DNA from: Methanofollis ethanolicus
GTDB lineage: Archaea > Halobacteriota > Methanomicrobia > Methanomicrobiales > Methanofollaceae
DNA: 64,000 nucleotides
Assembly: GCF_001571385.1 (NCBI RefSeq)
Contig: NZ_BCNW01000001.1
Coordinates: 1,550,001-1,614,000 of the forward strand
Direction of reading: 5' to 3'
The notes beneath the pieces were generated by a model. It did not search any database and was not told the origin of the DNA. It saw only the letters and a list, made by a program, of their open reading frames with translations. Below are positions 18,461 through 34,850 of the stretch, piece after piece; the first letter of the stretch is position 1; each line of letters begins with the position of its first letter. Made by a program: the position numbers and the translations under genes.

Positions 18461-19489
18461 TCACGATGCCGAGACGGATATGTTCACCGTCCTGATGGTT
18501 ACCGCCACGGGGGGGGATGAGCCGTCGATGTCAAGCGTTATGATGTCTCTGCCGTTGATTCCCCGGGTGGTTTTGGGCATGAGAACGTTATCGTAGTCCG
18601 TATGAAACTTATTCAGGTTTGATTCTGTCTCTTTTGCCAGATGCTTTGAAAATTCCGTCATCACGGTGTCGGTGCTGTTGATGAAGGTGAAATTCAGGTG
18701 ATGTGTATGTATGGGATCGGCTTCACGGACGTCGGCGAGTATCTGGAGAGTTGTGGGGCTGTTTCCGCTGACAAACGACGGGTTGCCGGGTACGATGGTC
18801 ACCAGATCGACCGTAAGGGAAGAGAGTTCTTCTTTTCCCGAACTGGCGTTGAACTCCCCTTTCTTGTTGAACGTGACGAACGAATCGGCGAACGTGGAAA
18901 ACTTCCCACTCGCACATACATCATCCATGGTGAACTCCGTGAGCGGCACTGTCTTCCCTTTCTTCGTGACGTTGATATAGCCGTACTGCCAGGTATACCC
19001 CTGGTCTTCCCAGAACGTGTAGGACGGTTCGAATGCGATGCTCACCATGCGGCAGGTTGCAATCGGCGCCCCGGTAGGTGTGGTGCGGATCTCTGCGAAC
19101 GCACCGAGATCGGTGACAGTGAGCGTTCCGCTGGATTTTTCGGGGCTCATCAGGATATCTCCTGCCCCCAGGGGTATCAGGTGGCCGTACGATGCGGGTA
19201 TTTTTTCAGAGGCGATATGCCTGATGTCGTTTGAGGACTCCATGAATGTTTCTTTTACGGAGTTAATCTGGTTGATCTCCGACTGTTCCTTGAGCCCTGG
19301 GACGTAACTCGTGGCGTACAGCGAAATGAATGTTGCAATCACCGCTAAAAGCAGCATCAGTGCGACGACGGATGAGACAGCGTCCTCCCGTCTGTGTCTA
19401 CGTTCCGCTGAGGCAGCGTAGATCCCGCCGCACGGCGGCATATCGAGATGCAGTGTACCGTTCAATCTGGTTTTCTCTGTTCTGATCAT
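18461..19489 (-). CDS. Pilin-like secreted protein at the end of the secretion operon
   Basis: A 342-residue protein with an N-terminal basic region, then RREDAVSSVVALMLLLAVIA (about 33-52) and a further hydrophobic stretch. This is the class III (type IV pilin) signal layout, with Glu-Asp near the cut site. The rest is an extracellular beta-rich, Asn/Thr-rich domain. It is the last gene of the operon with the ATPase and platform protein, so it is probably a major or minor subunit of the structure they build, or an export substrate. The start at ATG 19489 is preferred because AGGAGGTG overlaps the alternative GTG. It is much longer than the plus-strand pilins. Confidence 0.75.
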   Translation of the reverse strand: MIRTEKTRLNGTLHLDMPPCGGIYAASAERRHRREDAVSSVVALMLLLAVIATFISLYATSYVPGLKEQSEINQINSVKETFMESSNDIRHIASEKIPASYGHLIPLGAGDILMSPEKSSGTLTVTDLGAFAEIRTTPTGAPIATCRMVSIAFEPSYTFWEDQGYTWQYGYINVTKKGKTVPLTEFTMDDVCASGKFSTFADSFVTFNKKGEFNASSGKEELSSLTVDLVTIVPGNPSFVSGNSPTTLQILADVREADPIHTHHLNFTFINSTDTVMTEFSKHLAKETESNLNKFHTDYDNVLMPKTTRGINGRDIITLDIDGSSPPVAVTIRTVNISVSAS

Positions 19490-19511
19490 TGTTTTACACA
19501 CCTCCTGGTCG

Positions 19512-21314
19512 TCACAGAATGTACACGAAGAGCACGATCGAGGCGAGAAGGAAGACGACGGTATGCTTCAGTCCGGCGAGGATGTTGTTCGCGCTCAGCT
19601 GGCCCGCCATGATCCCCGAGAACCCCCCGATGATGATCCCCACCCTGAACATGTCCTGCAGGTTTCCGGTTATGTCGAAGGTGACATCCATCTCCCGGAA
19701 ACTTGCCACGAATGCATCGTTCAACTGATACGAGCAATAGAGATAAATCCCGAACGAGAGGTATATGACCGCGAGATACACGAACGATACGTTGAAACGC
19801 TTCAGTTTCATCTTCAGATAGTGCTCCAGGTCCCCGATGGCGATTGTCAGGATGTCCCTGAGGTGATCCGTGATCTCGCTTGCCTTTACAATGAGCGAGA
19901 CGGCACGTTTGACGGAGACAAGACCGATCCTCTCCTCCATGCGTATAAGTGCGCTTGAAGTACTGTATCCCCACTTCATCTCATCGGAAGCGATCTTCAG
20001 TTCGGATGAGAGAACTCCGATCTTTGAGGTGGACACCATATCGATCGCGCTCTGGAGCGTCATTCCGACATCTTTCATATCAGCAATATCGCGGAGAAAC
20101 TCGGGCATCTGCGCTTCTACTCTGTTCATGTAGATCTTGCGGGATTCGTAGGCAAGGATAACCGGGATCGTAAGGGCGATGACGAAGAGGCAGATGAACA
20201 TCTCGAGCGGAAACGCGGGGAAGAGGTCCGCAAGGCCTCCGCTCAGGTACTGCCACGCGACGATCAGGGAGAGGAGCATGCCGATGAAGAGTCCTATCTG
20301 GTAGTCGGAGATGTAAAACCGGAATGGATGTCTCAGGATCTCCCTGGCTTTCAGCCACTTTTTCCGTGTCTCGAGGTTTTTTACAAAATCCGGGTTATAT
20401 TCATCCTCTGTTCTTTTTTCGATGATCTCGTCGGTAAACTCCGACTCTCGGACTTCGCGGTGCGAGATCGTCAGGGTGTCGCTCGGCAGCAGGTAGTAGA
20501 GTATCACGATCAGGGCGATTGCCCCGAGGGGAAGGCCGATGTACATCAGCGGCATGATGCCTCCCATCTGCCCTCTTCCTGAGAGGTTCTGTGCGACCAG
20601 CATGATAATGATCGCAATTGGTCCTGCAACGAAGGCCGTTACGTAGACTTCGGCAATCATCTCCATGATCTGGAGGGTCGTTTCGAGCTCCTGCCGGGCG
20701 ATTTCACGGTACCTGTCCGAACGTGAGTCGAAGAAATCTTTCAGGTTTCCTCCGGTTTTGAAGACCAGGGCGAGGTCGTTGAGAAGGTCGGCGAAATTTT
20801 CGGAGGGTGTGATCTTTTGCAGGTTTTTCATTGCCGTCAGGAGGTCTTCGCCGAAAACTTCGACGTCGCGGACGATCATCCCGCATTCGTGCGAGACCTC
20901 GCCGTAGAGGTCTTCCGCCTCGAAGACACTCTTGAAGAGGGAGTAGAGAGTGACGTTCGTTGAGAGCGCTTCCATGTACGTGACTGCGTAGGGCAGGTCC
21001 ATATCGATGCGTGTCCTCCTGCCTGCTGCTACCAGCGCGGGGTAATAGAGGAGCGCAAGGAAGACGACGACGACGAGCACGACAAAGATCAGAACCTGCG
21101 ATACGATGCCGGGAAGGAACGGCAGGAAATCGACCGGGATATCGAAGACCAGGAAGAAGAGTTGCAGCAGCAGGTACCCGAATGCACACAGCAGCGTGAT
21201 GACGATACAGAATTGAAGGTATATCTCGGAATTTATGGGAATCTGCGCTCCCGATAACGATTTCTTGAGTCTCTCACTGTCCAGCAGGGGATCTATGAAC
21301 GAGTTAATCTGCAT
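19512..21314 (-). CDS. TadC/FlaJ-like membrane platform protein (type II secretion F domains)
   Basis: A 600-residue integral membrane protein with two copies of the T2SSF module. Hydrophobic segments lie near residues 30-55, 60-90, 215-240, 250-275, 340-385 and at the C-terminus. The cytoplasmic part of each half has the LxxAVTYMEALSTN / LRDIADMKDVGMTLQSAIDM pattern of platform proteins for archaeal pili or archaella. It anchors the assembly ATPase encoded just upstream; the genes overlap by 11 bases. No archaellum genes (flaF/G/H) are nearby, so a pilus or adhesive structure is favoured over a swimming organelle. Confidence 0.88.
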   Translation of the reverse strand: MQINSFIDPLLDSERLKKSLSGAQIPINSEIYLQFCIVITLLCAFGYLLLQLFFLVFDIPVDFLPFLPGIVSQVLIFVVLVVVVFLALLYYPALVAAGRRTRIDMDLPYAVTYMEALSTNVTLYSLFKSVFEAEDLYGEVSHECGMIVRDVEVFGEDLLTAMKNLQKITPSENFADLLNDLALVFKTGGNLKDFFDSRSDRYREIARQELETTLQIMEMIAEVYVTAFVAGPIAIIIMLVAQNLSGRGQMGGIMPLMYIGLPLGAIALIVILYYLLPSDTLTISHREVRESEFTDEIIEKRTEDEYNPDFVKNLETRKKWLKAREILRHPFRFYISDYQIGLFIGMLLSLIVAWQYLSGGLADLFPAFPLEMFICLFVIALTIPVILAYESRKIYMNRVEAQMPEFLRDIADMKDVGMTLQSAIDMVSTSKIGVLSSELKIASDEMKWGYSTSSALIRMEERIGLVSVKRAVSLIVKASEITDHLRDILTIAIGDLEHYLKMKLKRFNVSFVYLAVIYLSFGIYLYCSYQLNDAFVASFREMDVTFDITGNLQDMFRVGIIIGGFSGIMAGQLSANNILAGLKHTVVFLLASIVLFVYIL

Positions 21315-23055
21315 GGTACGTCGACTTCCTTAATTTGTTAATGAAATGCGAGATCGTATCGATGTCGTAGATCTTCCCGTTGACCATCCGCTGGAGAAGC
21401 TGTTTTCTGGTCTCTATCTGGGCCTGCAGTTCCTCCGCGCTCCACCCATTGGTGTAGGCGATATGCTCGAGGGTTCTTGACCGATCATAGGCCCTGTGGA
21501 ACCCATCCGTCTGCAGGTTCCACTCATACAGCGGGTTCCAGTGAATGTCGCCTCCTTCCAGGTACATCTCGTTGAGTGAGAGGCATCGCCTGAATCCGAT
21601 GCCCGCCCTGTATTGTAGTCCCTGGATCAGCATCAGATCGAGGGCGCCGAACATCACTGTCGGGACATTGATGGGGTCGTGGGTGAGCCTGTTGATCGCC
21701 TCTCGTACCCCTCCTGCGTGCAGGGTGGAGAAGGTGGTATGGCCCGTGTTCATGGCCTGGAAGAGGGTTTGCGCTTCTTCGCCTCTCACTTCTCCCACGA
21801 TGATGAACTCGGGCCGCTGCCGGAGGGAAGCCTTCAGGAGGGTGAACATATCCACGTCGCCGGCATCGAAGTTTTTACCACCTTCACGGGTCTTTAGGGG
21901 GAGCCAGTTCTTGTGGGGGAGCTGGATCTCGCGCGTATCTTCGATGGAGACGATCTTGGCTATCGACGGGATGAAGAACGAGACCGCGTTCATCGTGGAC
22001 GTCTTTCCGCTGGCCGTTCCCCCGACGATGATCATGCTCTTGCTGTTCTCCACACAGAGCCAGATGACGGCCATCAACTCCGCGCTGTAGGTGTTCAGCG
22101 TGATGAGGTCGACGGGCGTCATCGGGTCGGCCTTGAACTTCCGTATCGTAAACGAGCTTCCTTTCGACGATACGACGTCGCTGTAGGTAATCTGTGCTCT
22201 TGAACCCCCAGGAAGCGCTGCATCTATTAGGGGAGTCGTAAGTGACATCTGTTTGTTGGCCTTCTGGGCGATCTTCAGGGCATACTTATTCAACTCATCG
22301 TCCTCGAACTGGATGTTCGTGGCGAGGTTTGCATAGTTGCGGTGATAGACGAAGATCGGTACGCCCTTGCCGTTACAGGTGATATCTTCGATATTCTGAT
22401 CGTGCATGAGGGGGTCGAGCTTCCCGAACCCGGCGAAGTTGCGCCGGAGGAAATAAATGAGGATACCTATCCGTTCATCGTCGATTTCGGGGTCGAACGA
22501 CTTGATGATCTCCTTGATCCTGCCTTCATCGAACGTGGCGGTATTTTTGCTGGTCGATGAGGTGTAGATCAGCACATTCCTCAACTCCTCGTACGTCTCT
22601 TCCAGCAGGATGAACTCTTTATCGGATACCCTGGGCTCGACGACGACATATTCGAGATCCATATCCCGGTTTTTCACGATCTTTGCATATGCAAATGGGG
22701 GAACGAGCCAGTATCTCTCGATCACCCATTTTTCTTCTTCGGGATCGAGGGGCGGGAGTGGGTGCTCGTCCCATCGCTGGTCGTCGCCGGGAATGATCGT
22801 ATCCGCAGGGTCGGCCCTGTACTTCTTTTTCGATCCCTGCCTGAAGGAATCCCAGGTGTATTTCCCGGACGATTTACGGAGGTGTTGCTTCAGTTTTTCG
22901 AAGATTCCTCCCTTCTCTGCTGCCGTTCCGGTATCGGGTGATGGTGCCGGGCGCTCCTCTCCACCTGCCGTCTCTCCTCCGGTGTGCTTTCCCACGGAGG
23001 TCTCCGAAATATTCCCGGTAATGTCCGCCTCATGGTCGTATGCATCGGATGCCAT
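21304..23055 (-). CDS. Type II/IV secretion ATPase (TadA/GspE/FlaI family)
   Basis: A 583-residue hexameric cytoplasmic ATPase that powers pilus assembly. A low-complexity N-terminal tail (first ~70 residues) is followed by an N-domain. The motor domain has Walker A GGTASGKTS near residue 345, the Asp box IVSIEDTREIQLPH, Walker B FIIVGEVRG near 415, and the His box MNTGHTTFSTLHA. All catalytic motifs are intact. It precedes and overlaps the TadC-like gene. With the DUF3821 and transglutaminase-like genes upstream, it forms one operon read from a promoter near 27.6 kb, though 108 bases before this gene could hold another start. Confidence 0.92.
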   Translation of the reverse strand: MASDAYDHEADITGNISETSVGKHTGGETAGGEERPAPSPDTGTAAEKGGIFEKLKQHLRKSSGKYTWDSFRQGSKKKYRADPADTIIPGDDQRWDEHPLPPLDPEEEKWVIERYWLVPPFAYAKIVKNRDMDLEYVVVEPRVSDKEFILLEETYEELRNVLIYTSSTSKNTATFDEGRIKEIIKSFDPEIDDERIGILIYFLRRNFAGFGKLDPLMHDQNIEDITCNGKGVPIFVYHRNYANLATNIQFEDDELNKYALKIAQKANKQMSLTTPLIDAALPGGSRAQITYSDVVSSKGSSFTIRKFKADPMTPVDLITLNTYSAELMAVIWLCVENSKSMIIVGGTASGKTSTMNAVSFFIPSIAKIVSIEDTREIQLPHKNWLPLKTREGGKNFDAGDVDMFTLLKASLRQRPEFIIVGEVRGEEAQTLFQAMNTGHTTFSTLHAGGVREAINRLTHDPINVPTVMFGALDLMLIQGLQYRAGIGFRRCLSLNEMYLEGGDIHWNPLYEWNLQTDGFHRAYDRSRTLEHIAYTNGWSAEELQAQIETRKQLLQRMVNGKIYDIDTISHFINKLRKSTYHAD

Positions 23056-23164: not shown

Positions 23165-24892
23165 TCATAGCAGCAGCCCTCCCTTTCCGTGCATCTGGAT
23201 AGATACTACGGCCTCGCAGTTTCTCACGAAGGTTACGATGTAGAAGGTGCCGGTTTCGTAGAACGTGTGATAGTTGACGGTATCCTGCCCCGACGTATGG
23301 CCGTATGCGAACTCGTCGACGAGCATCGCGGAGCCGGTCTCTTCATCCACCTTATAGACGGCAAATCGCATATCCGAGAACGAGGAGAGCCCTTCGATGT
23401 CGTTATCCGGCGGGTTTTTGGGGACGGCTTCGTACCGTATCCGCCACGCTTCGGTCGGCGAGATGTAGATCTCGTTTGACTTCGTGTAGAGCGGCTGGTT
23501 TTCGATGACCTCGTAGTTCATGACGTCGAGATACCACGTTCTATCATAGAAGTTCACTTTCGTGTCGTACCAGACGTCCTGCCAGTACGCGTCCTCGCTG
23601 ATGCGGTTTACTCTCCCGACCTCGTCGACCATGCCCGTGGGGACCCGGATGCCCAGTCGCCCGGAGAGGCTTTCGCGCAGTTCCGGCCCGGCATCAGTCT
23701 TCAGCGGGGAGGGTGTTCGCAGCGAGGCTGTCAGCGATGCATCGATGAGGTCGTCGCGGCTGATTGCTATGTTGTTTCCGGCATCGATGAGAGTCGTTAC
23801 GATCACGGGTTCCACTTTCGCGAGTTCACCTGGGACCTCCCCTGGCAGGGCGGTCGCATTCAGGGCATCTATGTAGATGAACGATTCTGTGGTGACCCAG
23901 GATGCGTTCTCCATCCTGTAGAAGATGGGTGTCATCCCTGCGGGAGGCACGAATCCTTCAGGGTAGGCGATCGTCCGGGCGGGTATGTCCCAGGCGGCTT
24001 CCCCGGCGGCGACCGTCCGGCCGTCTGCATAACCTACGGTCGTGTTTCCCGTGAAGTACCCCGACTCCGGTTCAGGGAACGAAACGTCCGGGAGGCTGCA
24101 GGTTCTGCTCTGCGGGTAGCAGGTCACGGTGCCGATCTCAGTGTGGTGCAAGGCCGTGTAGGTCCTCCCATCTATCGTGTCGTCACACCTGATGCCGACG
24201 GCAGGGTATTCCCAGATCAGGTGGCCCCTGTCGTACTGTTCCGGGAAGACCAGGAACGCTACCGGATACCCCATGGCTTTCAGGACGGAGGCTGCAAGAA
24301 TGTTGATGTCGTCCCTATCCCCTGTTCCTTCCCAGAGCGTCTCGACCGGGTGGCGGTAGTGGCCGTCGGGAGGGGTGTTGACAAACTCGCCGGGCCCGTA
24401 CTGCTGCACGCATGCAACCGTGTTTCTGATGGTGTCGTAGTCCCCCCACCCGTTCTCCACCGACTGTTCCAGGATATAGCCTGCTATTCCGTCGACCAGT
24501 CCGCCGTCGCCGTCCGTCGCTACAGACTGCGCGACGAGGTCGCCGGTCGTCATGTTGGAGGTGATGCTTGCGTTTTTTGACCTGAACATGTTGTATGTGG
24601 CGTTTTTGACGGTGCAGGCATAGACGAACTGCCGGTCGCGATATGTCCAGTTGAGCGTGAGCGTTCTTTCATCGGAATTTTTGGCGCCTGTCCGCGACGG
24701 GGATGGTGTTGGCGACGTACTTCTGATGTCTGTGGAGTCCCCGTCGCTGTCGGCTCCGGGCACGGTGGGGGTGCTTCCCTCTTCGAGAACCCCCATTACC
24801 CTGAGCCCGATGAGGGCACTGACGATGACGATCCCGATGATGATTGCAATGGTGAGCCGGGTCAGGAGGGTCTGGTCGATTGTGTGAACCAT
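23165..24892 (-). CDS. Membrane-anchored transglutaminase-like protein lacking the catalytic Cys
   Basis: A 575-residue protein with an N-terminal anchor (about 10-37), a Ser/Thr/Pro linker, and an extracellular region containing a transglutaminase-like core. The family motif GDCxD is GDRDD here (191-195), so the nucleophilic Cys is Arg193. A His (224, GHLIWEYPAVGI) aligns with the catalytic His. The fold without the nucleophile suggests binding or scaffold use rather than crosslinking or proteolysis. GGAGGTG, which overlaps the upstream gene's stop, sets ATG 24892. It sits between the DUF3821 and ATPase genes in the appendage operon, arguing for a structural role in surface assembly. Confidence 0.75.
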   Translation of the reverse strand: MVHTIDQTLLTRLTIAIIIGIVIVSALIGLRVMGVLEEGSTPTVPGADSDGDSTDIRSTSPTPSPSRTGAKNSDERTLTLNWTYRDRQFVYACTVKNATYNMFRSKNASITSNMTTGDLVAQSVATDGDGGLVDGIAGYILEQSVENGWGDYDTIRNTVACVQQYGPGEFVNTPPDGHYRHPVETLWEGTGDRDDINILAASVLKAMGYPVAFLVFPEQYDRGHLIWEYPAVGIRCDDTIDGRTYTALHHTEIGTVTCYPQSRTCSLPDVSFPEPESGYFTGNTTVGYADGRTVAAGEAAWDIPARTIAYPEGFVPPAGMTPIFYRMENASWVTTESFIYIDALNATALPGEVPGELAKVEPVIVTTLIDAGNNIAISRDDLIDASLTASLRTPSPLKTDAGPELRESLSGRLGIRVPTGMVDEVGRVNRISEDAYWQDVWYDTKVNFYDRTWYLDVMNYEVIENQPLYTKSNEIYISPTEAWRIRYEAVPKNPPDNDIEGLSSFSDMRFAVYKVDEETGSAMLVDEFAYGHTSGQDTVNYHTFYETGTFYIVTFVRNCEAVVSIQMHGKGGLLL

Positions 24893-24896
24893 CTCT

Positions 24897-27533
24897 TCAC
24901 CTCCGTGCTGCGTACAGTAGCGTACAGAAGATCGCGAGTGCCGAGAAGACGGAGAATATGGTCTCATATCCCATGGCCTGGCCTGACGACGGTGTCGTTG
25001 CTGTCGCGGAGGGGGTCGGTACGTACATTGTTGCCGTTGGCGTGACCCACACAGGATTTGCGGGAGTTACAGGGTTTGAGTTGAATTCTTCTCCCGTGAC
25101 CGGGCTCGCCAGACCGTGCTCCTTTCTGTAGCCCTCTTCGTGGAGGGTGAAGAGGATCTCCTTCTTGTACTTGATGTCCTCGCATTTGATGACGGCGACG
25201 TAATCACCGGCTGTCATCTGTGCGGATCTCTCGGCAGGGATCGTGAAAGAGACCTTTCGCGATGCTGCGCCCGTCGCCGTTTTTGCAGGGACCGCCGATG
25301 CGCTGTAGATCCTGTTGGTGCTCTGGGTCTTCCCGGCGTAATACATGTCGGCGGTGTAGAGGGCAAGGGAGACGCTGTCTCCCGGCAGGTCGATCTGGTT
25401 GTACGGGTAATATACGGTGCATTCAAGGTTCGTTGTTCCCGTTATCGGTATCGCCTCACCGACCTCATAGTCCTGGATGGGACCGACGTCCACCACCGAT
25501 TTTTCGACGGTAAAGGTCTGGGTAACAAGGCTATCGTCGACGAGGGAGGACGCAATCGCGTTCTTCAGCGCGCTGACGGCATCCGCCGATTGCAGCGCGG
25601 AGATGTCGACGCTCTCTCCGCTGGATATAATCAGGGTCGTTAAGTCGCCGCTGTAGGTATCCCCCTGTATTGGCCGGACATTGAATGTCTGGTCGTTCAT
25701 GGGGTGCTGGTATACCACGGTGTACTCTCCCCTGCTCAGGTTCGCCGAGAAACTGCGTGGAAGGTTCAGGCCCGAATACCCCGGGTAGTCTCCCTTATCT
25801 GCAAGTGCGTTCAGCTGTTCTGGTGTTGCATCCTTGTCCACCTTGGGCAGAGGGAACTCCTGGATCCCTGTGTACCGGAGGTTGCTGCCGAAGATGTAAT
25901 ACCGGATTTTACCGGTGTATGAGCTCTTTGCCGGGCTGCCGCGCGCCGTCCAGAGCGAGACGATGTGATCGCCCTGTGCAAAGAACCCGGGCGCTTCCTG
26001 CGGGAACATGACGTTTATCGAGGGCTGGTTGAGATCGACCTCCCGGTAATCCTTCACGTCCGTCTCGATCAGTGCCCTGCTGGCGTAGCCGGTCGGATTT
26101 ACGGTGGCGAAGATGGTGTAGGTTCCGTCGGTAAGCCCGGTATTTCCGGTATTCCACCTGTACTCAAATTCTGTCTGGCCTTTAGAGATGTGAACGGATT
26201 CAAATGTGCTGTTGTCGCCGTCTATCGCCCCTATCTGCGGGTTCGATGGCTTTACACCGTTTGAATCCAGGTTGGGCCCGGTGATGTAAAAGTAGACGTC
26301 CATCTCGTCCGCTGCGGCTGCCCCGAGCCTGCCGGTAACGGGTATCGTGTCCCCCAGACAGTAGTATTCGTCGTTGCTCAACTTGGAGGCGTCGAGCACG
26401 ATCTCTTTTGTTGAACCGCCTGGCTCCACCATGACCTGCACCGTTGTGAAGGTGGACGGGTTGCGGGTTTCGTAGATCTTTGGGTAGTATGAGCGCGTGG
26501 TGTGGCTGGAGTCGCCGCCGGTGGCAGGGATATACAGGGGCACGCGGACCGTTCCGCTCCAGTCCGGGTGGACGGTCGCGTTGTACTTGCTGACGTAGAT
26601 GTCATAGTTGCCGGTGGCCGGAAGTTCGGGTTTTCCGTCCATGGTATCTTCGATCACGATGGTGTAGTATGTGTACGGCTTTCCCGTGATGGTCAGCGTC
26701 GTGGTCTGGTCCGCATTGACGACCGAGGGTGATGCCGAGGCCGCGAGGGTGTAGCGGACGACGTCGAACCGGTAATCTTTCGTATAAAAGGCATCGTTTC
26801 CGTTGTATGCCGTGAACGTCATCACGTAGGTTCCTTCCTCCGGGTTTGGGTTCTGGTCTGCGATGCTGAATGCAAGGATGTTGTTGTCGTCCGACGGGTC
26901 GCCGGTGAGTCCGGCGAGCGATACGGTGTTGCCTGCCATGTTGGTGACGGTGCTGATCGGGACGCCGCCCGGGGTTCTGAGTTCGTACTCGTACCACGGG
27001 TTGACGAAGTTGCCGTTGTTGAGGTTTGTCGTGTCCAGTTTGAACTGGACGTTCATGGTGGCGGGGATGACTGCAGGCGTCCGCGTATCGGTTTTCTTCG
27101 GGTCGACGTCCGTCCCGAGCGCGGTCCCGGCGCGCACCTCTATGGTACCTGTGGGCTGGGATACGGTGCAGATGGCGGACCCCCACGTGCCGTTGTAGAG
27201 TTTGAACGGCCGGTCGAGGTATGCGGATGCGACGTTCACCCGACCTGTTAAAATTGCGCCGTCATTCAGTGTCTGCATCGCAAGGGCGGACCCCCCGTCG
27301 TCGCAGGCCAGATAGAGGGGCGGCAAGAGGGGGGACGAGGGCTGAAGCGTCGAAAAGTTGAGTCCCCGCTCCCCGTTAAATACGGTATCTCCTGGGTGTA
27401 TCCCCGCGTTAGACCCCTCGGGCGAGTCGTACCGGGCAGCCACGGGAGCTGCGACCGCACTGATGATGAGGTACGCCAGAACGAGAATACCGAGGGTTTT
27501 CAGTGTTTGTGGGTTGCTGATCCTGATCTGCAT
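24897..27533 (-). CDS. DUF3821-like S-layer/surface protein with C-terminal anchor
   Basis: An 878-residue extracellular protein. It has a signal peptide (about 10-33), an N-terminal segment with GIHPGDTVFNGERGLNF as in DUF3821 proteins of methanogens, and several Ig-like beta domains with Asn-Thr/Ser glycosylation-type sites. A Thr/Pro-rich stalk and a C-terminal membrane helix (about 852-873) ending in RR follow. The architecture is that of a cell-surface or S-layer-associated protein. It heads the appendage operon. The promoter interval carries the 14-bp palindrome site at 27587-27600. The function is unknown; structural or adhesive is most likely. Confidence 0.78.
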   Translation of the reverse strand: MQIRISNPQTLKTLGILVLAYLIISAVAAPVAARYDSPEGSNAGIHPGDTVFNGERGLNFSTLQPSSPLLPPLYLACDDGGSALAMQTLNDGAILTGRVNVASAYLDRPFKLYNGTWGSAICTVSQPTGTIEVRAGTALGTDVDPKKTDTRTPAVIPATMNVQFKLDTTNLNNGNFVNPWYEYELRTPGGVPISTVTNMAGNTVSLAGLTGDPSDDNNILAFSIADQNPNPEEGTYVMTFTAYNGNDAFYTKDYRFDVVRYTLAASASPSVVNADQTTTLTITGKPYTYYTIVIEDTMDGKPELPATGNYDIYVSKYNATVHPDWSGTVRVPLYIPATGGDSSHTTRSYYPKIYETRNPSTFTTVQVMVEPGGSTKEIVLDASKLSNDEYYCLGDTIPVTGRLGAAAADEMDVYFYITGPNLDSNGVKPSNPQIGAIDGDNSTFESVHISKGQTEFEYRWNTGNTGLTDGTYTIFATVNPTGYASRALIETDVKDYREVDLNQPSINVMFPQEAPGFFAQGDHIVSLWTARGSPAKSSYTGKIRYYIFGSNLRYTGIQEFPLPKVDKDATPEQLNALADKGDYPGYSGLNLPRSFSANLSRGEYTVVYQHPMNDQTFNVRPIQGDTYSGDLTTLIISSGESVDISALQSADAVSALKNAIASSLVDDSLVTQTFTVEKSVVDVGPIQDYEVGEAIPITGTTNLECTVYYPYNQIDLPGDSVSLALYTADMYYAGKTQSTNRIYSASAVPAKTATGAASRKVSFTIPAERSAQMTAGDYVAVIKCEDIKYKKEILFTLHEEGYRKEHGLASPVTGEEFNSNPVTPANPVWVTPTATMYVPTPSATATTPSSGQAMGYETIFSVFSALAIFCTLLYAARR

Positions 27534-27960: not shown

Positions 27961-28003
27961 ACTTATTTGTTAAACGACGATGCACCTGAAGGTGGGATCT
28001 GGT

Positions 28004-28624
28004 ATGAAAGAAAAGCAGAGCAGTTTGAATTCGGAGGCGGTCTCCCCCGTTATCGGCGTGATGCTGATGCTTGTGGTGACGATCATCGTCGCCGCCGCGG
28101 TGTCGGCGTTCGCGGGAGGGTTTGCCGACGATCAAAAAGAGACGCCGGTTGCACAGATCGACGTGCAGCTGAAGACCGAAGGGTCATACCCGAAGCTGGT
28201 GTTCACGCATCTCGGCGGCGACGCGCTGGATACAGGCGATCTGAAGATCATCACGTACTTTCATGGATACGGAAAGTGCGGCGCCCACGAACTGAGTAAA
28301 GAGGTACTTCCTGTCCGCAAGCACACGACCGACGGTTCGCTCGACCCGATGGTCCCGGCGAACAACTACGATGCGGCCGATTACAATGCGGGCACGGGAT
28401 CGTTCATTTCAAACAACGGCTATCCCTGCACGGTATCGAACGGGAAACCGGTCAAGTACTGGGGCAACTCGACGATGATGCCGGGCGACGTCTACACGAC
28501 GATCGATAAGGCGTCGCTCGAGAGCGTCATTACCGTACGGAGCGTCGGCGACGACCTGATCGAGGTGGAGATCATCCACATCCCGAGCGGGAAGACGATC
28601 TTCAGCGGGGAGGTGATCTATTGA
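28004..28624 (+). CDS. Type IV pilin 1 of plus-strand array
   Basis: A 206-residue prepilin. A short polar leader (MKEKQSSLNSE) precedes the class III core AVSPVIGVMLMLVVTIIVAA, which forms the assembly helix. A C-terminal beta-rich extracellular head with two widely spaced Cys and Asn-Ser/Thr sites follows. The archaeal prepilin peptidase should cut just before AVSP; no peptidase gene is seen in the window. The start at 28004 follows GGTGGG; an in-frame ATG at 27980 lacks one. It is the first gene of six in one direction and overlaps the next as TGATG. Confidence 0.88.
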   Translation: MKEKQSSLNSEAVSPVIGVMLMLVVTIIVAAAVSAFAGGFADDQKETPVAQIDVQLKTEGSYPKLVFTHLGGDALDTGDLKIITYFHGYGKCGAHELSKEVLPVRKHTTDGSLDPMVPANNYDAADYNAGTGSFISNNGYPCTVSNGKPVKYWGNSTMMPGDVYTTIDKASLESVITVRSVGDDLIEVEIIHIPSGKTIFSGEVIY

Positions 28625-29160
28625 TGAACTGTTCATTTCGGGAGAACGAGAGCGGCGTATCGCCGGTCATCGGAGTCATGCTGATGCTTGTAGTGACGAT
28701 AATCATTGCGGCCGTCGTATCGGCATTTGCGGGAGGTCTCACCGACTCATCGACGGATGTCCCGGTGGCCGCGTTTGAGTTCAAGGTATACAAACAGTTT
28801 ATTTCTGCAAGCTACAATCCGGGTGCAAGTGATAGGGTCGTGGCGATCATGAAGAGCGGAGAGGCGATCGACACGCAACATTTGAAGATCGTCTCCTACT
28901 ACAAGGACGACGACGGAAACATTATCTCCCATGAATTCACTGAGTCACAGATCGGTGCGCAATTCTTCGCCAAGGGATCTGTCGGGACGGACACATATTT
29001 CGGCAAACCCGGCACGTACTGGCATACGGGAGACAAATTTTTTGGCCTCCCGAGCACTCTTTTCGGGGTAACGCCCGACAGGGGTGACACTATCGAGATC
29101 AACGTGGTGCATAAACCGACGAACACGGTGATATGGTCGGCCGAGGTGACGGTCATATGA
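28624..29160 (+). CDS. Type IV pilin 2
   Basis: A 178-residue prepilin. The leader MNCSFRENESG is followed by VSPVIGVMLMLVVTIIIAAV and a distinct head domain with LKIVSYYKDDDGNI and a C-terminal VVHKPTNTVIWSAEV strand shared in outline with the other pilins. A GGGAGGTG ribosome site inside the preceding gene drives translation, and the start ATG overlaps the previous TGA. It is translationally coupled to pilins 1 and 3, implying fixed ratios of subunits. Confidence 0.87.
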   Translation: MNCSFRENESGVSPVIGVMLMLVVTIIIAAVVSAFAGGLTDSSTDVPVAAFEFKVYKQFISASYNPGASDRVVAIMKSGEAIDTQHLKIVSYYKDDDGNIISHEFTESQIGAQFFAKGSVGTDTYFGKPGTYWHTGDKFFGLPSTLFGVTPDRGDTIEINVVHKPTNTVIWSAEVTVI

Positions 29161-29663
29161 AAATAAAAGAAGAGGAGGCGGTATCGCCGGTCATCGGGGT
29201 GATGCTGATGATTGTGGTGACCGTCATCATCGCAGCTGTTGTCTCCGCGTTTGCCGGCGGTTATTCAGATGACGACCGAAAGGCGCCGACCGCAGTCATC
29301 TCCTGTAAGGCAATAGGGGATGGCCTCCTGTTCACCCACGAATCGGGGGACTTCATCGATCTGGTCGACGTCATCGTTGTCCTGACAAACGGGGAAGATA
29401 CAAGGAGATTTTATTATGCCCCCTATACTGATGCTCGCGCTATGGTGAAGGTCAGTCCCGTGCGATCACTGACGACTGACCTGCAGATCACTACGGGCAA
29501 CCAGTTCTACCTTCCTGCGGACAATGACGGCACCGGCGTTGCCGGCGGCTATCTCGGGTGGGATGATCCCGCGTTCTACCTGACAACCGACGAGATCGGG
29601 ACGTATACGATCATCGACCGGGAGAGCAATCAGATCATATCGACAGGCATGATCAGTATCTAA
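29157..29663 (+). CDS. Type IV pilin 3
   Basis: A 168-residue prepilin starting MKIKEEEAVSPVIGVMLM, overlapping the previous stop as ATGA with GAGGTG upstream. It has the assembly helix, then a head domain ending ..TYTIIDRESNQIISTG. The leader is only seven residues, the shortest of the array. Shared features with its neighbours are the near-identical first ~35 codons and a divergent head. Confidence 0.87.
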   Translation: MKIKEEEAVSPVIGVMLMIVVTVIIAAVVSAFAGGYSDDDRKAPTAVISCKAIGDGLLFTHESGDFIDLVDVIVVLTNGEDTRRFYYAPYTDARAMVKVSPVRSLTTDLQITTGNQFYLPADNDGTGVAGGYLGWDDPAFYLTTDEIGTYTIIDRESNQIISTGMISI

Positions 29664-29685
29664 ATCAACGATTCAAGGTGAAAAA

Positions 29686-30264
29686 ATGAGGGAAATGGAG
29701 AGAAATGAAGATGCGGTCTCGCCGGTCATCGGCGTCATGCTGATGATCGTCGTGACCGTGATCATCGCTGCCATCGTTTCGGGCTTTGCCAGCGGCATGG
29801 GAGACACCCAGAAAGCGGCACCGGCGGCGGCGATACAGTGCAGTATCGTGAAAGCGGATGTGGACAATGTGGTGATGACCTTAAAGCACGTCTCGGGAGA
29901 TTCGCTCAAGACGGCCGACCTGAGGTTCTACGTCAGCTATGTGGACTCAGCTGGCACTCCGGTCCAGAAGAGGACGCAGGGTGTTTCGGCGGCAGGGTTT
30001 ACCAACTCGCGGGGAGAGACGGTAAGCGCAAAGATCCCGTACCTGACCGACGTGAAGGTAGGGGACGTGGGAGACGACGCCACGAACTACGGCAACTTCA
30101 TCTGGAACCCCGGGCAGATTCTCACAACCGGCAACGCGGCGGGTTTCAAGGCGATAACCGGGCTTGATGCGTCTGGTGTCAAGATCGGGGACATTCTCAG
30201 TATAAAGATCGTGGACACAACCTCCCAGAAGGCGGTATTTGACCAGGATGTGAGGGTACAATGA
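29686..30264 (+). CDS. Type IV pilin 4
   Basis: A 192-residue prepilin (MREMERNEDAVSPVIGVM...), with AAGGTGAAAAA before the ATG. The head is Ala/Gly/Thr-rich, with LRFYVSYVDSAGTPV and IWNPGQILTTGN, the latter a motif echoed in the pilin at 36183. It is separated from pilin 3 by 22 bases and overlaps pilin 5 by four. Confidence 0.87.
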   Translation: MREMERNEDAVSPVIGVMLMIVVTVIIAAIVSGFASGMGDTQKAAPAAAIQCSIVKADVDNVVMTLKHVSGDSLKTADLRFYVSYVDSAGTPVQKRTQGVSAAGFTNSRGETVSAKIPYLTDVKVGDVGDDATNYGNFIWNPGQILTTGNAAGFKAITGLDASGVKIGDILSIKIVDTTSQKAVFDQDVRVQ

Positions 30265-30794
30265 AGAGAATTGCCATGATGAACGAAGATGCGGTATCGC
30301 CCGTTATCGGGGTGATGCTGATGATCGTCGTGACCGTCATCATCGCAGCGGTCGTATCCGGGTATGCAGGGGGAATGACCTCTTCGGAGAGCAAGGTGCC
30401 GAATGCGGCGTTCACCATCCACCCGAATCTCAACGGCAACGGCACGATCGCGTTCCATCAGACCGGCGGCGACGAACTGATGCTCAACGAGATCCTCGTC
30501 CAGCTCGAATACAACGACAGGAGCATCATCCTCTCGAACCTCGACAATATGACTGGTTATTCCGATCTTGAATACCTCTCCGAGATGGGCGGCGACGCGG
30601 ACGGTTTCATCACCGGCGGCGACCGGCTCGTCCTGACCTGCGACAGAAACGATGCTACAAACAAGGCATTTGTATTCAAGCCCGCCGATGCGGCGGCGAA
30701 CTTCACAATCCCGTACTACGGCCACATCAGGTACATGATCCTTGATAAGGAGAGTGCGAAGGCGATCCAGACGGGGGAGTTCGTGCTGAAGTAG
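30261..30794 (+). CDS. Type IV pilin 5
   Basis: A 177-residue prepilin (MKRIAMMNEDAVSPVIGVM...). The start overlaps the previous stop as ATGA. The head has FHQTGGDELMLNEILVQLEY and RYMILDKESAKAIQTGEF. The 'TGGD + LxL' step after the helix is common to most pilins of this island and looks like a conserved head element. Confidence 0.87.
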   Translation: MKRIAMMNEDAVSPVIGVMLMIVVTVIIAAVVSGYAGGMTSSESKVPNAAFTIHPNLNGNGTIAFHQTGGDELMLNEILVQLEYNDRSIILSNLDNMTGYSDLEYLSEMGGDADGFITGGDRLVLTCDRNDATNKAFVFKPADAAANFTIPYYGHIRYMILDKESAKAIQTGEFVLK

Positions 30795-30852
30795 ACGGGC
30801 CTTTTCCGGTTATTCTTTAATCGGGATTTCGATCTTTCAGGAGGATGATCAG

Positions 30853-31710
30853 ATGAAAAAGACAAAGGGCAATCACGAAACAGAGGCGGTCTCGCCGGTC
30901 GTCGGGGTGATGCTGATGATCGTGGTGACCGTCATCATCGCGGCGGTGGTCTCCGGGTTTGCCGGGGACATGGGGCTCGACAAGAAGACCGGGCCGGATG
31001 TTGTGCTATCGGGACCGGTGCTTGATTTCGATTCGAGCGCAACACCGGGAGAATTGATTGATATTAAAACGTATGCAAAGTATGATAATTATCCAAATCG
31101 GCCAGAGGTGTGGTTGCGGGATGCTAGCTACGTAGTACGCCTGCCATCAACGGTGACCGACCAGCACGGACTGACCTTCACTCATCGGGGAGGGGATCCG
31201 ATCGACCTCAAAGATCTCCAGATGGAATTCAGCACGGGAGACCTGGGTATTATGGTCGACTATGACTCAACGAGGGTACAGGTGCAGCAGACGGAGCCGT
31301 TTGAACCAAAGTATAAAGTAGGGGATACATTCGACTCACCGCGGGGCCCCCGGACCGTCACACGTATGACGATCACCTATCGCGATCGCCCCGATGATGC
31401 GGCACCCACGCTGGATGAGCTGATGGAGCAACTGAAGAACTGCCCGCACTCTGGCTACTTCGTCAAGATAAGTCCCGAGACGCCGGATGACACGATCATA
31501 CGCACGGGAGACCAGTTCAAGATATACACAGACGACACAACGGGAGACAACTGGGCGATTGCATGCACGAACCACGGCCATTCCGAGAGTATGGGTATTG
31601 AATCCGGTACGGGCGTCAAGTGGACTCTTTCCCACAAGCCGTCCGGACAGATTCTTGCACAGGGAGACCTTAACTTCCCGGATGCAGAGGGAGGGGGATA
31701 TCCTATCTAG
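30853..31710 (+). CDS. Type IV pilin 6 (large head)
   Basis: A 285-residue prepilin, the largest of the array (MKKTKGNHETEAVSPVVGVM...). It has a strong GGAGG six to ten bases before ATG 30853. The head contains an insert (about 85-190), visibly more AT-rich at its beginning, with TFTHRGGDPIDLKDLQMEF as in the other pilins and a C-terminal WTLSHKPSGQILAQGDL. The extra mass could make it a tip or adhesive subunit (inference). It is followed by a strong hairpin. Confidence 0.87.
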   Translation: MKKTKGNHETEAVSPVVGVMLMIVVTVIIAAVVSGFAGDMGLDKKTGPDVVLSGPVLDFDSSATPGELIDIKTYAKYDNYPNRPEVWLRDASYVVRLPSTVTDQHGLTFTHRGGDPIDLKDLQMEFSTGDLGIMVDYDSTRVQVQQTEPFEPKYKVGDTFDSPRGPRTVTRMTITYRDRPDDAAPTLDELMEQLKNCPHSGYFVKISPETPDDTIIRTGDQFKIYTDDTTGDNWAIACTNHGHSESMGIESGTGVKWTLSHKPSGQILAQGDLNFPDAEGGGYPI

Positions 31711-32625: not shown

Positions 32626-34113
32626 TCAGCTGAATATGCAGAGATCACCTTCATGATCGACGGTGTAAACTTCATCCCATGCAATGGCCGCGGTCGCTCC
32701 TCCTGCCGGATAACTCCAGCTTGTACCACCATTATAGGCATCATAGAGCGCATACGTGGTGTTATAGCAGTACGAGGGATAATTGTTATTGCCCGTTTCC
32801 CTTCCGGCAAAGACGACCGGTTCTCCATCCGCATCTTCGTCTGCGATGGCTACCGAGCATGTCCATCCGCCCATATTAGCATTGAGACGACTCCAGAGCA
32901 GGTTCAGGTTTGAAGAACTGTAACACCTGACACCGGGAGTCGCGCTTCCATAGATTCCGCCGTTCCACCCGCCGGATACATAGACGCGGTCGCGTGCTTT
33001 ATCGATGGACGGTGTGGCATCGGTACGCTCGATGGACTGGCTGGTGACGGACGACCCGTCTTTGCTGATCTTATACAATTTCCCGTTGCTCCCGAAACTG
33101 TACGATGCAACAAAGATACAGTCGTCATCGACCGACACGGAACCGCAGAACGATTCGGAATCCCCTACGCCATAACTCCAGTCTTCCGTGCCTGCGGCAA
33201 CATCCACCTTGTACAGGTAACCTGTGTGCTGGGTGACATTATCATAGCCCCATCCCGTGACGTAGATCTTTCCTTCGTCACCCTCGGTCGGGTCGAATGC
33301 CGGCGTTGCCTGGGAATTTGTCATATCATAGTCCCACGTATCCGCGTTGTTGAAGACCCACTTCATGGTGCCGTTGTTCTTGTAAAGGCAGTAGTAATTG
33401 CCGCCCCAGTCACTGCAGAAGACGTAATCGTCGGTGACCGTCGGTCCGCCGTTGCAGTTGTCATGATACATCGTAAAGGTCCACATCAACTGACCATCCG
33501 AAACCCGTACGCAGATCGTCTTGTTGTCGGACGATGCATACGCATATGTTCCGTCGGTTGCCGCCGAGGACCAGGAGTTGGAATAATAACCGGAAGATAT
33601 ATTCGTACGTGGCAGATCCTGAACCCAGTCGACGGACAGCTGACCATTGTACCAGTCGATGCAGGTCAGGTTGACCTTCGTAAGTCCTTCCGGTTCCTCG
33701 AACCCGGCGTATCCGGTCATCACAAGTATCTTCTTATGCCCTGAGGCATCTTTAAAGACCACGGGGTTTATTGTACCTATGACATCGATACCCAGGCTGC
33801 TGGTGGAGTTCACCACAGAACAATCGGCCGGGATGTTATCACACGGAGAATACCCTGTGTTTGCCGCATCATGCATAAACTGCGGCCAGTCTTCGGAACT
33901 GAGAGATCTCACAGCAGTCCTGGTGACCACGGGAGCAGCTTCCGCGTTGCAGACAGTGGTTCCACCATCGGGTGATGTCTCCAGAGACAATTTTTCTGGA
34001 CTGTTGAACGACATGAACTGCGGATTGTCCGAATAGTCTCCTGCCGCTACCGCCGGCGCGAAGAGCGCCAGCACCATGAACGCTGCCAGTACCGGCAGCA
34101 ATGTGTTTTTCAT
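32626..34113 (-). CDS. Secreted PQQ-repeat beta-propeller protein
   Basis: A 495-residue exported protein. The signal peptide is at about 3-22 (LLPVLAAFMVLALFAPAVAA). The typical entry motif DWPQFMHDAANTGYS (about 75-89) is followed by repeated propeller strands (YAYASSDNKTICVRVSDGQLMWTF, YLYKVDVAAGTEDWSYG) to the end. Such proteins are extracellular propellers that bind ligands or sugars and are abundant in Methanomicrobiales; the ligand is unknown. GGAGGAAA before ATG 34113 sets the start. It lies between pilin clusters and is likely part of the cell-surface programme. Confidence 0.83.
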   Translation of the reverse strand: MKNTLLPVLAAFMVLALFAPAVAAGDYSDNPQFMSFNSPEKLSLETSPDGGTTVCNAEAAPVVTRTAVRSLSSEDWPQFMHDAANTGYSPCDNIPADCSVVNSTSSLGIDVIGTINPVVFKDASGHKKILVMTGYAGFEEPEGLTKVNLTCIDWYNGQLSVDWVQDLPRTNISSGYYSNSWSSAATDGTYAYASSDNKTICVRVSDGQLMWTFTMYHDNCNGGPTVTDDYVFCSDWGGNYYCLYKNNGTMKWVFNNADTWDYDMTNSQATPAFDPTEGDEGKIYVTGWGYDNVTQHTGYLYKVDVAAGTEDWSYGVGDSESFCGSVSVDDDCIFVASYSFGSNGKLYKISKDGSSVTSQSIERTDATPSIDKARDRVYVSGGWNGGIYGSATPGVRCYSSSNLNLLWSRLNANMGGWTCSVAIADEDADGEPVVFAGRETGNNNYPSYCYNTTYALYDAYNGGTSWSYPAGGATAAIAWDEVYTVDHEGDLCIFS

Positions 34114-34850
34114 AGTGTTTTTCCTCCATACTACGTGTTCCGGCATGCTGGTCCGGGTGGGAGCGGGTGCAGTTCCCGGCGTATCCGGAGATGCGCCGCG
34201 GACTTGAGGGGCGTGCGATGCGGCCAACCACCCCGCCGGGCCGTCCATACCGGCATCTTGGTTCGGGAGGACCGCTTGGACGTTAGTGGGTGTCTCGGGA
34301 GAGCGATGCCGTGCCGGCGCATGGACAAATTTTATTGTTATATATCAAATTATTTTAAGTTTATGATCTCTGCCGGCCGCTGCTCCGAGACCGGTAACGG
34401 AAAGAAAATGCTCCCCGGTGCGGCTGTCGGTCGCCCGGAACGGACCACCAATTTCCCCTCGCCGTATTCAGCACTGCCCGGAACACCACGCCGCAATGGC
34501 AGTTACCACACCCGGAACGGGTCGTCCCCACCGTTTCGGTCCATGTCATCTGCCCGGTGACGCACCCGGAGGGATCGGTGCCCCCCTACGATCTCCTGCG
34601 CCCTTGGCGATACCGGGCGGAAGAGTTCCGGAGGGCGTTCAACCCGGCGCCGGCGTGGCCGCCGCGCTCTGAGGGATGATCTGAGGGTTCCATCGGCCTG
34701 CGGATCCGATCCTGATTTATCTTGCGGGGGTGAAGGGGCGGAGTGGGAAGACCATGGCCAACAGGTGCGGGGATGAACGCTCTGCTACCCTTCTGATATT
34801 CTACTGGCGATATCTTTTTCTTGTTTATGGGTAAGTCTTTGTTGTCATGT
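34114..34850. other. Gene-free region upstream of the PQQ protein
   Basis: No supported gene. An AT-rich island at 34328-34365 includes palindrome site S3 and is the likely promoter of the PQQ-repeat gene. The right part is GC-rich. Short frames there (for example a plus-strand frame at about 34558-34675 reading YDLLRPWRYRAEEFRRAF) are too weak to call. Confidence 0.45.
34335..34348. promoter_or_regulatory. 14-bp palindrome site S3 (TTGTTATATATCAA)
   Basis: It lies 222 bases before the PQQ-repeat gene on the minus strand, in the only AT-rich island of this interval. It is one mismatched pair from a perfect palindrome. Confidence 0.45.

Follow-up and report, generated by a model that had tools for sequence, protein, structure and literature searches.

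The locus raises the question why a protein that resembles a transglutaminase, encoded among genes for an archaeal surface structure, should carry arginine where the catalytic cysteine is expected, and what such a protein may still do. The window analysed here is a 64,000-nucleotide stretch of Methanofollis ethanolicus, in which the sequence and the list of open reading frames (ORFs) give a 575-residue ORF at 23165-24892 on the minus strand. The ORF, its coordinates and strand, and the motif GDRDD with Arg193 at the nucleophile position were all confirmed, the motif spanning residues 191-195 and Arg193 being encoded by AGG (window positions 24316-24314). The position that the gene holds in its operon is here called the slot, and the protein is divided as follows.

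23165..24892, minus strand: pseudo-transglutaminase pilus-operon protein, 575 aa; an ORF belonging to a family of 34 slot genes
24782..24880, minus strand: single N-terminal hydrophobic (transmembrane, TM) segment, residues 5-37, from hydropathy
24143..24670, minus strand: transglutaminase/LapG-like domain, about residues 75-250, from a profile-profile match and PDB 4fgo
24308..24322, minus strand: GDRDD, residues 191-195, with Arg193 at the nucleophile position, from the sequence and alignment with GDC[ED]D relatives
24206..24208, minus strand: Tyr229, at the position that the catalytic His of Cys-type relatives takes in the family alignment
23867..23869, minus strand: Asp342 (YIDALN), a possible counterpart of the third triad residue; weak, from the family pattern W..D[TA], which reads YID here
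23177..23590, minus strand: C-terminal beta-type domain, about residues 435-572, from modest HMM homology to short slot proteins of other pilus operons

The pattern around Asp342 recurs in many family members in a region of uncertain alignment. A hydrophobic segment similar to that at the N-terminus is found in all 34 members except two that are cut N-terminally. AlphaFold2 models were too poor for use, with pLDDT of 33 for the full length and 29 for residues 72-362.

Assignment to the transglutaminase-like (TG) fold was reached through profiles. In Pfam and NCBIfam the window protein matched no TG family, the curated Pfam cut-off not being reached, and PF01841 was touched weakly by only four of 22 family members (best E 0.0038). 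The family alignment (22 rows) was compared, profile to profile, with eight Cys-bearing TG proteins, each of them matched by both PF04473 and PF01841 (E up to 0.1). Window residues 70-245 were covered at a probability of 99.9 (E 2.1e-33). Against the PDB the only matches of the family profile were 4fgo (E 1.6e-5) and 4u65 (E 0.0033), and we take the latter to be the LapG complex from the paper that describes 4fgo. On this profile evidence the window protein is homologous to the TG-like core. The 4fgo paper describes Legionella LapG with a transglutaminase fold, a C-H-D triad, and calcium close to the active site (PMC4359373), and LapG appears as an adhesin peptidase with this triad and calcium in two reports (PMC4359373, PMC13090378). 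Among 392 genomes sampled across the phylum, members of the order included, the matches listed outside the order cover the TG part only, none of them reaching the C-terminal domain.

The distribution of the substitution was established by searching 232 Methanomicrobiales genomes, collecting the listed matches that clearly belong to the long family and fetching their surroundings. After L002 and L005 had been dropped as duplicates, and L106 (the other part of the L050 gene, which is broken across two contigs) and L107 (a C-terminal fragment only) set aside, 34 unique slot genes from 29 genomes remained. They were compared with 16 Cys-type TG relatives, a set picked from the best partial matches and not exhaustive. 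At the Cys position the alignment has Ser in 27 slot genes, Arg in five, Lys in one and Thr in one, and at the His position Ala in the 27 Ser-type members and Tyr in the other seven; neither Cys nor His occurs at these positions in any slot gene, while both are present in 16/16 Cys-type relatives. The active relatives thus read GDC[ED]D where the window protein reads GDRDD; GD itself is replaced by GS in two slot-family members. The helix after the motif is kept, as had been claimed, and ILAASVLKAMGY matches the Cys-bearing relatives. The claim that the His region is kept did not hold: the His of the Cys relatives (in HMAVGV or HAAVAV) aligns with Tyr229, and the visible His224 (GHLIWEYP) is replaced by Tyr, Gln or Ser in close orthologues. 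Loss of His in addition to Cys makes inactivity more certain. The slot family is a TG domain that lacks nucleophile and catalytic His throughout its clade.

Consistent loss of Cys among homologues in the same operon context had been proposed as a check, and it is found in every slot gene, within one clade. Homologues with Cys are confined to relatives of different architecture outside the slot, some of them pilus-linked. There is no replacement Cys at the active site, the best-conserved Cys column of the family (Cys559, 19/34) lying in the C-terminal domain.

A sequencing error or single-genome mutation at Arg193, in what would normally be a Cys-bearing gene, was considered and rejected. Nothing was found in its favour, and it has virtually no probability given 34/34 slot genes without Cys and Arg in five genomes, encoded by codons of two families (AGG or CGG). 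The Lys residue is less certain, coming from a genome (G103) with several stops in other genes of the operon.

The family might still be enzymatic, its nucleophile being the Ser itself for the Ser branch, or else some other residue. Ser is invariant in 27/27 members of that branch, 19 of which have a His three residues past it, and unusual arrangements are on record in papain-like enzymes, with His right after Cys (GP42) or with Glu-based dyads (PMC10318531). We nevertheless regard this as very improbable, since in all 27 the catalytic His is Ala, every His column of the Ser branch stays below 75%, and Arg, Lys and Thr occupy the site in the branch of the window protein.

Maximum-likelihood analysis of 49 TG domains places the Cys-less genes on one side of one branch (100/99). 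Within this side the tree separates an Arg/Lys/Thr clade (100/98) from a Ser clade (91/95). The split recurs (Ser clade 99/94) in a second tree, to which two Cys-type genes were added and from which own_L033 was omitted because of its long branch; L050 was too short for either tree. A single loss of Cys is the simplest reading, the order of the Cys, Ser and Arg states being unproven as the trees are unrooted. The Ser codons divide into 14 AGY and 14 TCN among 28 rows, one gene being counted twice, and as both codon boxes are in use Ser itself appears to be selectively kept. The site may thus still be doing something in the Ser branch. Ten pairs of pseudo-TG genes gave dN/dS of 0.10-0.32 (Nei-Gojobori), several pairs relying on automatic ORF starts and the L037/L038 pair involving a frameshifted genome. 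For the same pairs the ATPase and platform genes usually gave lower values and the S-layer-like gene similar ones. The pseudo-TG gene is under purifying selection and is not decaying. The original prediction of a pseudoenzyme within a surface-assembly operon hence stands in so far as the Cys-less family of this pilus/S-layer operon is conserved and selected, and falls in the support that it drew from a kept His.

These data also bear on the possibility that the TG domain is inert, a passive spacer within an ordinary [TM]-[beta] pilus subunit with a cleft that has no function. The variation of the site in the window branch (R, K, T, even GS for GD) and the existence of operons with a beta protein alone would agree with this. 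Invariance of Ser in the other branch (27/27, drawn from both codon boxes) and conservation of G191, D195, L199, G208 and Y209 in 34/34 members point the other way, and a spacer is in our judgement unlikely.

The genomic context of the pseudo-TG gene is an archaeal type IV pilus operon, with the following neighbours in the window.

24897..27533, minus strand: S-layer-like protein, 878 aa, directly upstream; NCBIfam S_layer_MEMAR E 6.3e-58, below its cut-off
21304..23055, minus strand: pilus assembly ATPase, 583 aa; PF00437 E 1e-31
19512..21314, minus strand: pilus membrane platform protein, 600 aa; PF00482 E 2.6e-22
18461..19501, minus strand: pilin-like protein, 346 aa; PF07790 E 0.0018, below its cut-off
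27980..31710, plus strand: six clustered pilin-like ORFs in divergent orientation, their N-termini of the pilin type; the one tested matched PF07790 at E 4.1e-20

This place among ATPase, platform and pilin genes is conserved in the window and the 33 other loci. Only 4 bp separate the stop of the S-layer-like gene from the start of the pseudo-TG gene. The S-layer-like gene is directly upstream in 33/34 loci, the window included, and in 31 of the 33 non-window loci it ends within 30 bp of the pseudo-TG start or overlaps it. The exceptions are L050, which lies at a contig edge and whose other half (L106) has the S-layer gene overlapping, and L061, a fragment in which the S-layer-like gene was not found. 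An ATPase gene follows within 200 bp downstream in 28 of the 33 non-window loci, and at 455 bp in L061. L062-L065 have the platform gene directly after the pseudo-TG gene, the ATPase gene being missing between the two.

In the window branch the two acidic residues that flank the dead site (D192 and D194 in the window protein) are both kept in 5/7 members, and in the Ser branch the second one is variable. For DvhG, one report describes D316/E318 around C317 as a predicted calcium site (PMC13090378), and one may speculate that ion or peptide binding has survived at the dead site in the window branch. The retained pair would also suit a decoy or regulator, in which the dead domain still binds the target peptide of active LapG/TG-like peptidases, thereby protecting a pilin, adhesin or S-layer protein from the Cys-bearing paralogues of the cell. 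At least two TG relatives with Cys and His are indeed encoded elsewhere in the same genome (own_L033, own_L034), and among solved structures the closest relatives are adhesin peptidases of the LapG type. However, no common substrate is known, no pilus link is established for the genomic paralogues, and tight operon linkage to the machine genes is more readily explained by a fixed part than by a titrating decoy, so that a shielding role seems rather improbable.

What occupies the slot in related operons was examined by way of the platform protein, relatives of which are present in 87/232 genomes at E 1e-80, many without pseudo-TG. Twenty pilus loci without pseudo-TG, chosen by us, were fetched. 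The S-layer-like query found no match in these 20 loci, nor in nine loci with a Cys-type TG. A beta-domain protein is encoded in 14 of the 20, nine of these 14 having been used to build the beta HMM; the proteins are mostly 224-325 aa long, begin with an N-terminal TM or lipoprotein-like segment, and are in most of the 14 loci encoded directly before the ATPase. Residues 430-575 of the pseudo-TG family, used as an HMM, match these beta slot proteins (best E 4.5e-6), and 10 of the 12 top other matches among 3169 ORFs are slot ORFs, a nominal hypergeometric P of 7e-24 that is overstated because the loci are related. With the reverse HMM, built from the beta proteins, the pseudo-TGs rank right behind the beta proteins themselves (best E 1.5e-5). 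Alignment of the C-terminal domain with the beta proteins by hhalign gave a probability of 51, and no significance was reached when whole profiles of the pseudo-TG family and the beta proteins were compared. Taken at their modest strength, these matches suggest a C-terminal domain common to the pseudo-TGs and the slot proteins of other operons. One single-TM family in the slot upstream of the pilus ATPase (L111-L115, L118) combines an invariant GPL motif with a beta-type C-terminal domain and has no Pfam family where scanned. The beta-domain slot protein points to a pilus subunit that is conserved and has no Pfam family.

Intact TG domains occur beside the beta protein as separate genes. In L108 and L109 a TG gene that retains both Cys and His comes just before the beta gene and the ATPase. 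Eight of the nine best lipoprotein-beta places in another family of the order lie just downstream of a TG-domain match on the same strand, as judged by comparing coordinates by eye, and Cys and His could be read in five of these eight TG neighbours (L066, L067, L068, L069, L075). Pilus-linked Cys-type relatives are L066, L067, L069, L108 and L109. PEGA domains are present in six of the eight Cys-type proteins of alignment A2. The arrangement as neighbouring genes where TG is intact and as one protein where it is dead is a usual sign of functional linkage, and does not prove fusion of these particular genes. With this modest support, the window protein looks like a fused form, [TM]-[dead TG]-[beta], of the short [TM or lipobox]-[beta] slot protein.

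A binding function suggests itself most naturally for the fused protein and agrees with the operon context. We propose, with about an even chance of being right, that the protein is a membrane-anchored subunit of the pilus machine in which the dead TG domain serves as a binding module, making it an adaptor between the ATPase/platform side and the S-layer-like protein. The N-terminal TM helix would anchor this type IV pilus subunit in the membrane, and the single N-terminal hydrophobic segment suggests that the remainder faces outward. Fusion of a TG domain with the stand-alone [TM or lipobox]-[beta] protein would be the simplest view of its origin, the TG domain having presumably lost catalysis and been retained for binding. 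Contact with the ATPase/platform side would then be made by the TM and beta parts, and contact with the S-layer-like protein encoded directly upstream by the dead TG domain. We infer both the adaptor function and this partner, as co-location alone cannot separate a partner from a neighbour.

One may go further and suppose that, in one branch of Methanomicrobiales, fusion turned a two-gene pilus module of an active LapG-like peptidase and a beta protein into one membrane protein, and that its peptidase half, now without catalysis, permanently clamps a dedicated S-layer-like protein. This extension is possible but doubtful. If true, such pili would stay fixed in the envelope, whereas the two-gene systems would cut and release theirs.

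The adaptor proposal has parallels. FlaF, the archaellum anchor that binds the S-layer protein, does the kind of job proposed here, joining a type IV pilus-like machine to the S-layer, and is named as an analogy only. LapG/BTLCP (PF06035; PDB 4fgo, 4u65) gives the best match among solved structures and shares the G-D-x-[ED]-D motif context and extracytoplasmic control of a surface structure. Unlike LapG, the slot family is without catalytic Cys or His, is membrane-anchored, has a large C-terminal domain and belongs to an archaeal pilus operon. In EPB42 and FBXO21 the TG fold was likewise kept for scaffolding or binding after catalysis was lost (PMC10318531); these proteins differ from the slot family in being eukaryotic, in an unrelated context and with no pilus or S-layer link.

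A 2016 census of archaeal type IV pili lists pilus-linked transglutaminase-family 'surface peptidases' in this order, with a suggested role in pilin processing or degradation (PMC4858521). The census family has the same order and the same kind of operon link as the slot family. However, its proteins were taken as peptidases, which the slot family cannot be, and arCOG03450 may correspond to the slot family or to the Cys-type neighbours. As both catalytic residues are gone in all 34 members, the reading as a pilin-processing peptidase fails for the slot family. No description of an inactive TG family linked to type IV pili was found in the accessible parts of the open-access literature on archaeal inactive TG-like proteins, arCOG03450 and pilus/transglutaminase/S-layer/pseudoenzyme. 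The slot family, a pseudoenzyme clade whose relatives beside similar machines are catalytically intact, offers a natural contrast for studying the change from surface peptidase to structural part.

Three further observations concern the surroundings of the gene. The same genome has a second complete operon of the same type (L036, G000:C1:1473000-1491000), the Ser-type pseudo-TG of which is about 29% identical to that of the window. A weak transglutaminase-like match (L035, G000:C1:1614198-1614410) lies about 200 bases past the window end in this genome. Beyond the pilin cluster, a PQQ/BamB-like beta-propeller gene is found at window positions 32626-34248 on the minus strand and also in L038-L041 of the Arg/Lys/Thr branch, the contigs of the other two loci of that branch ending too early to tell.
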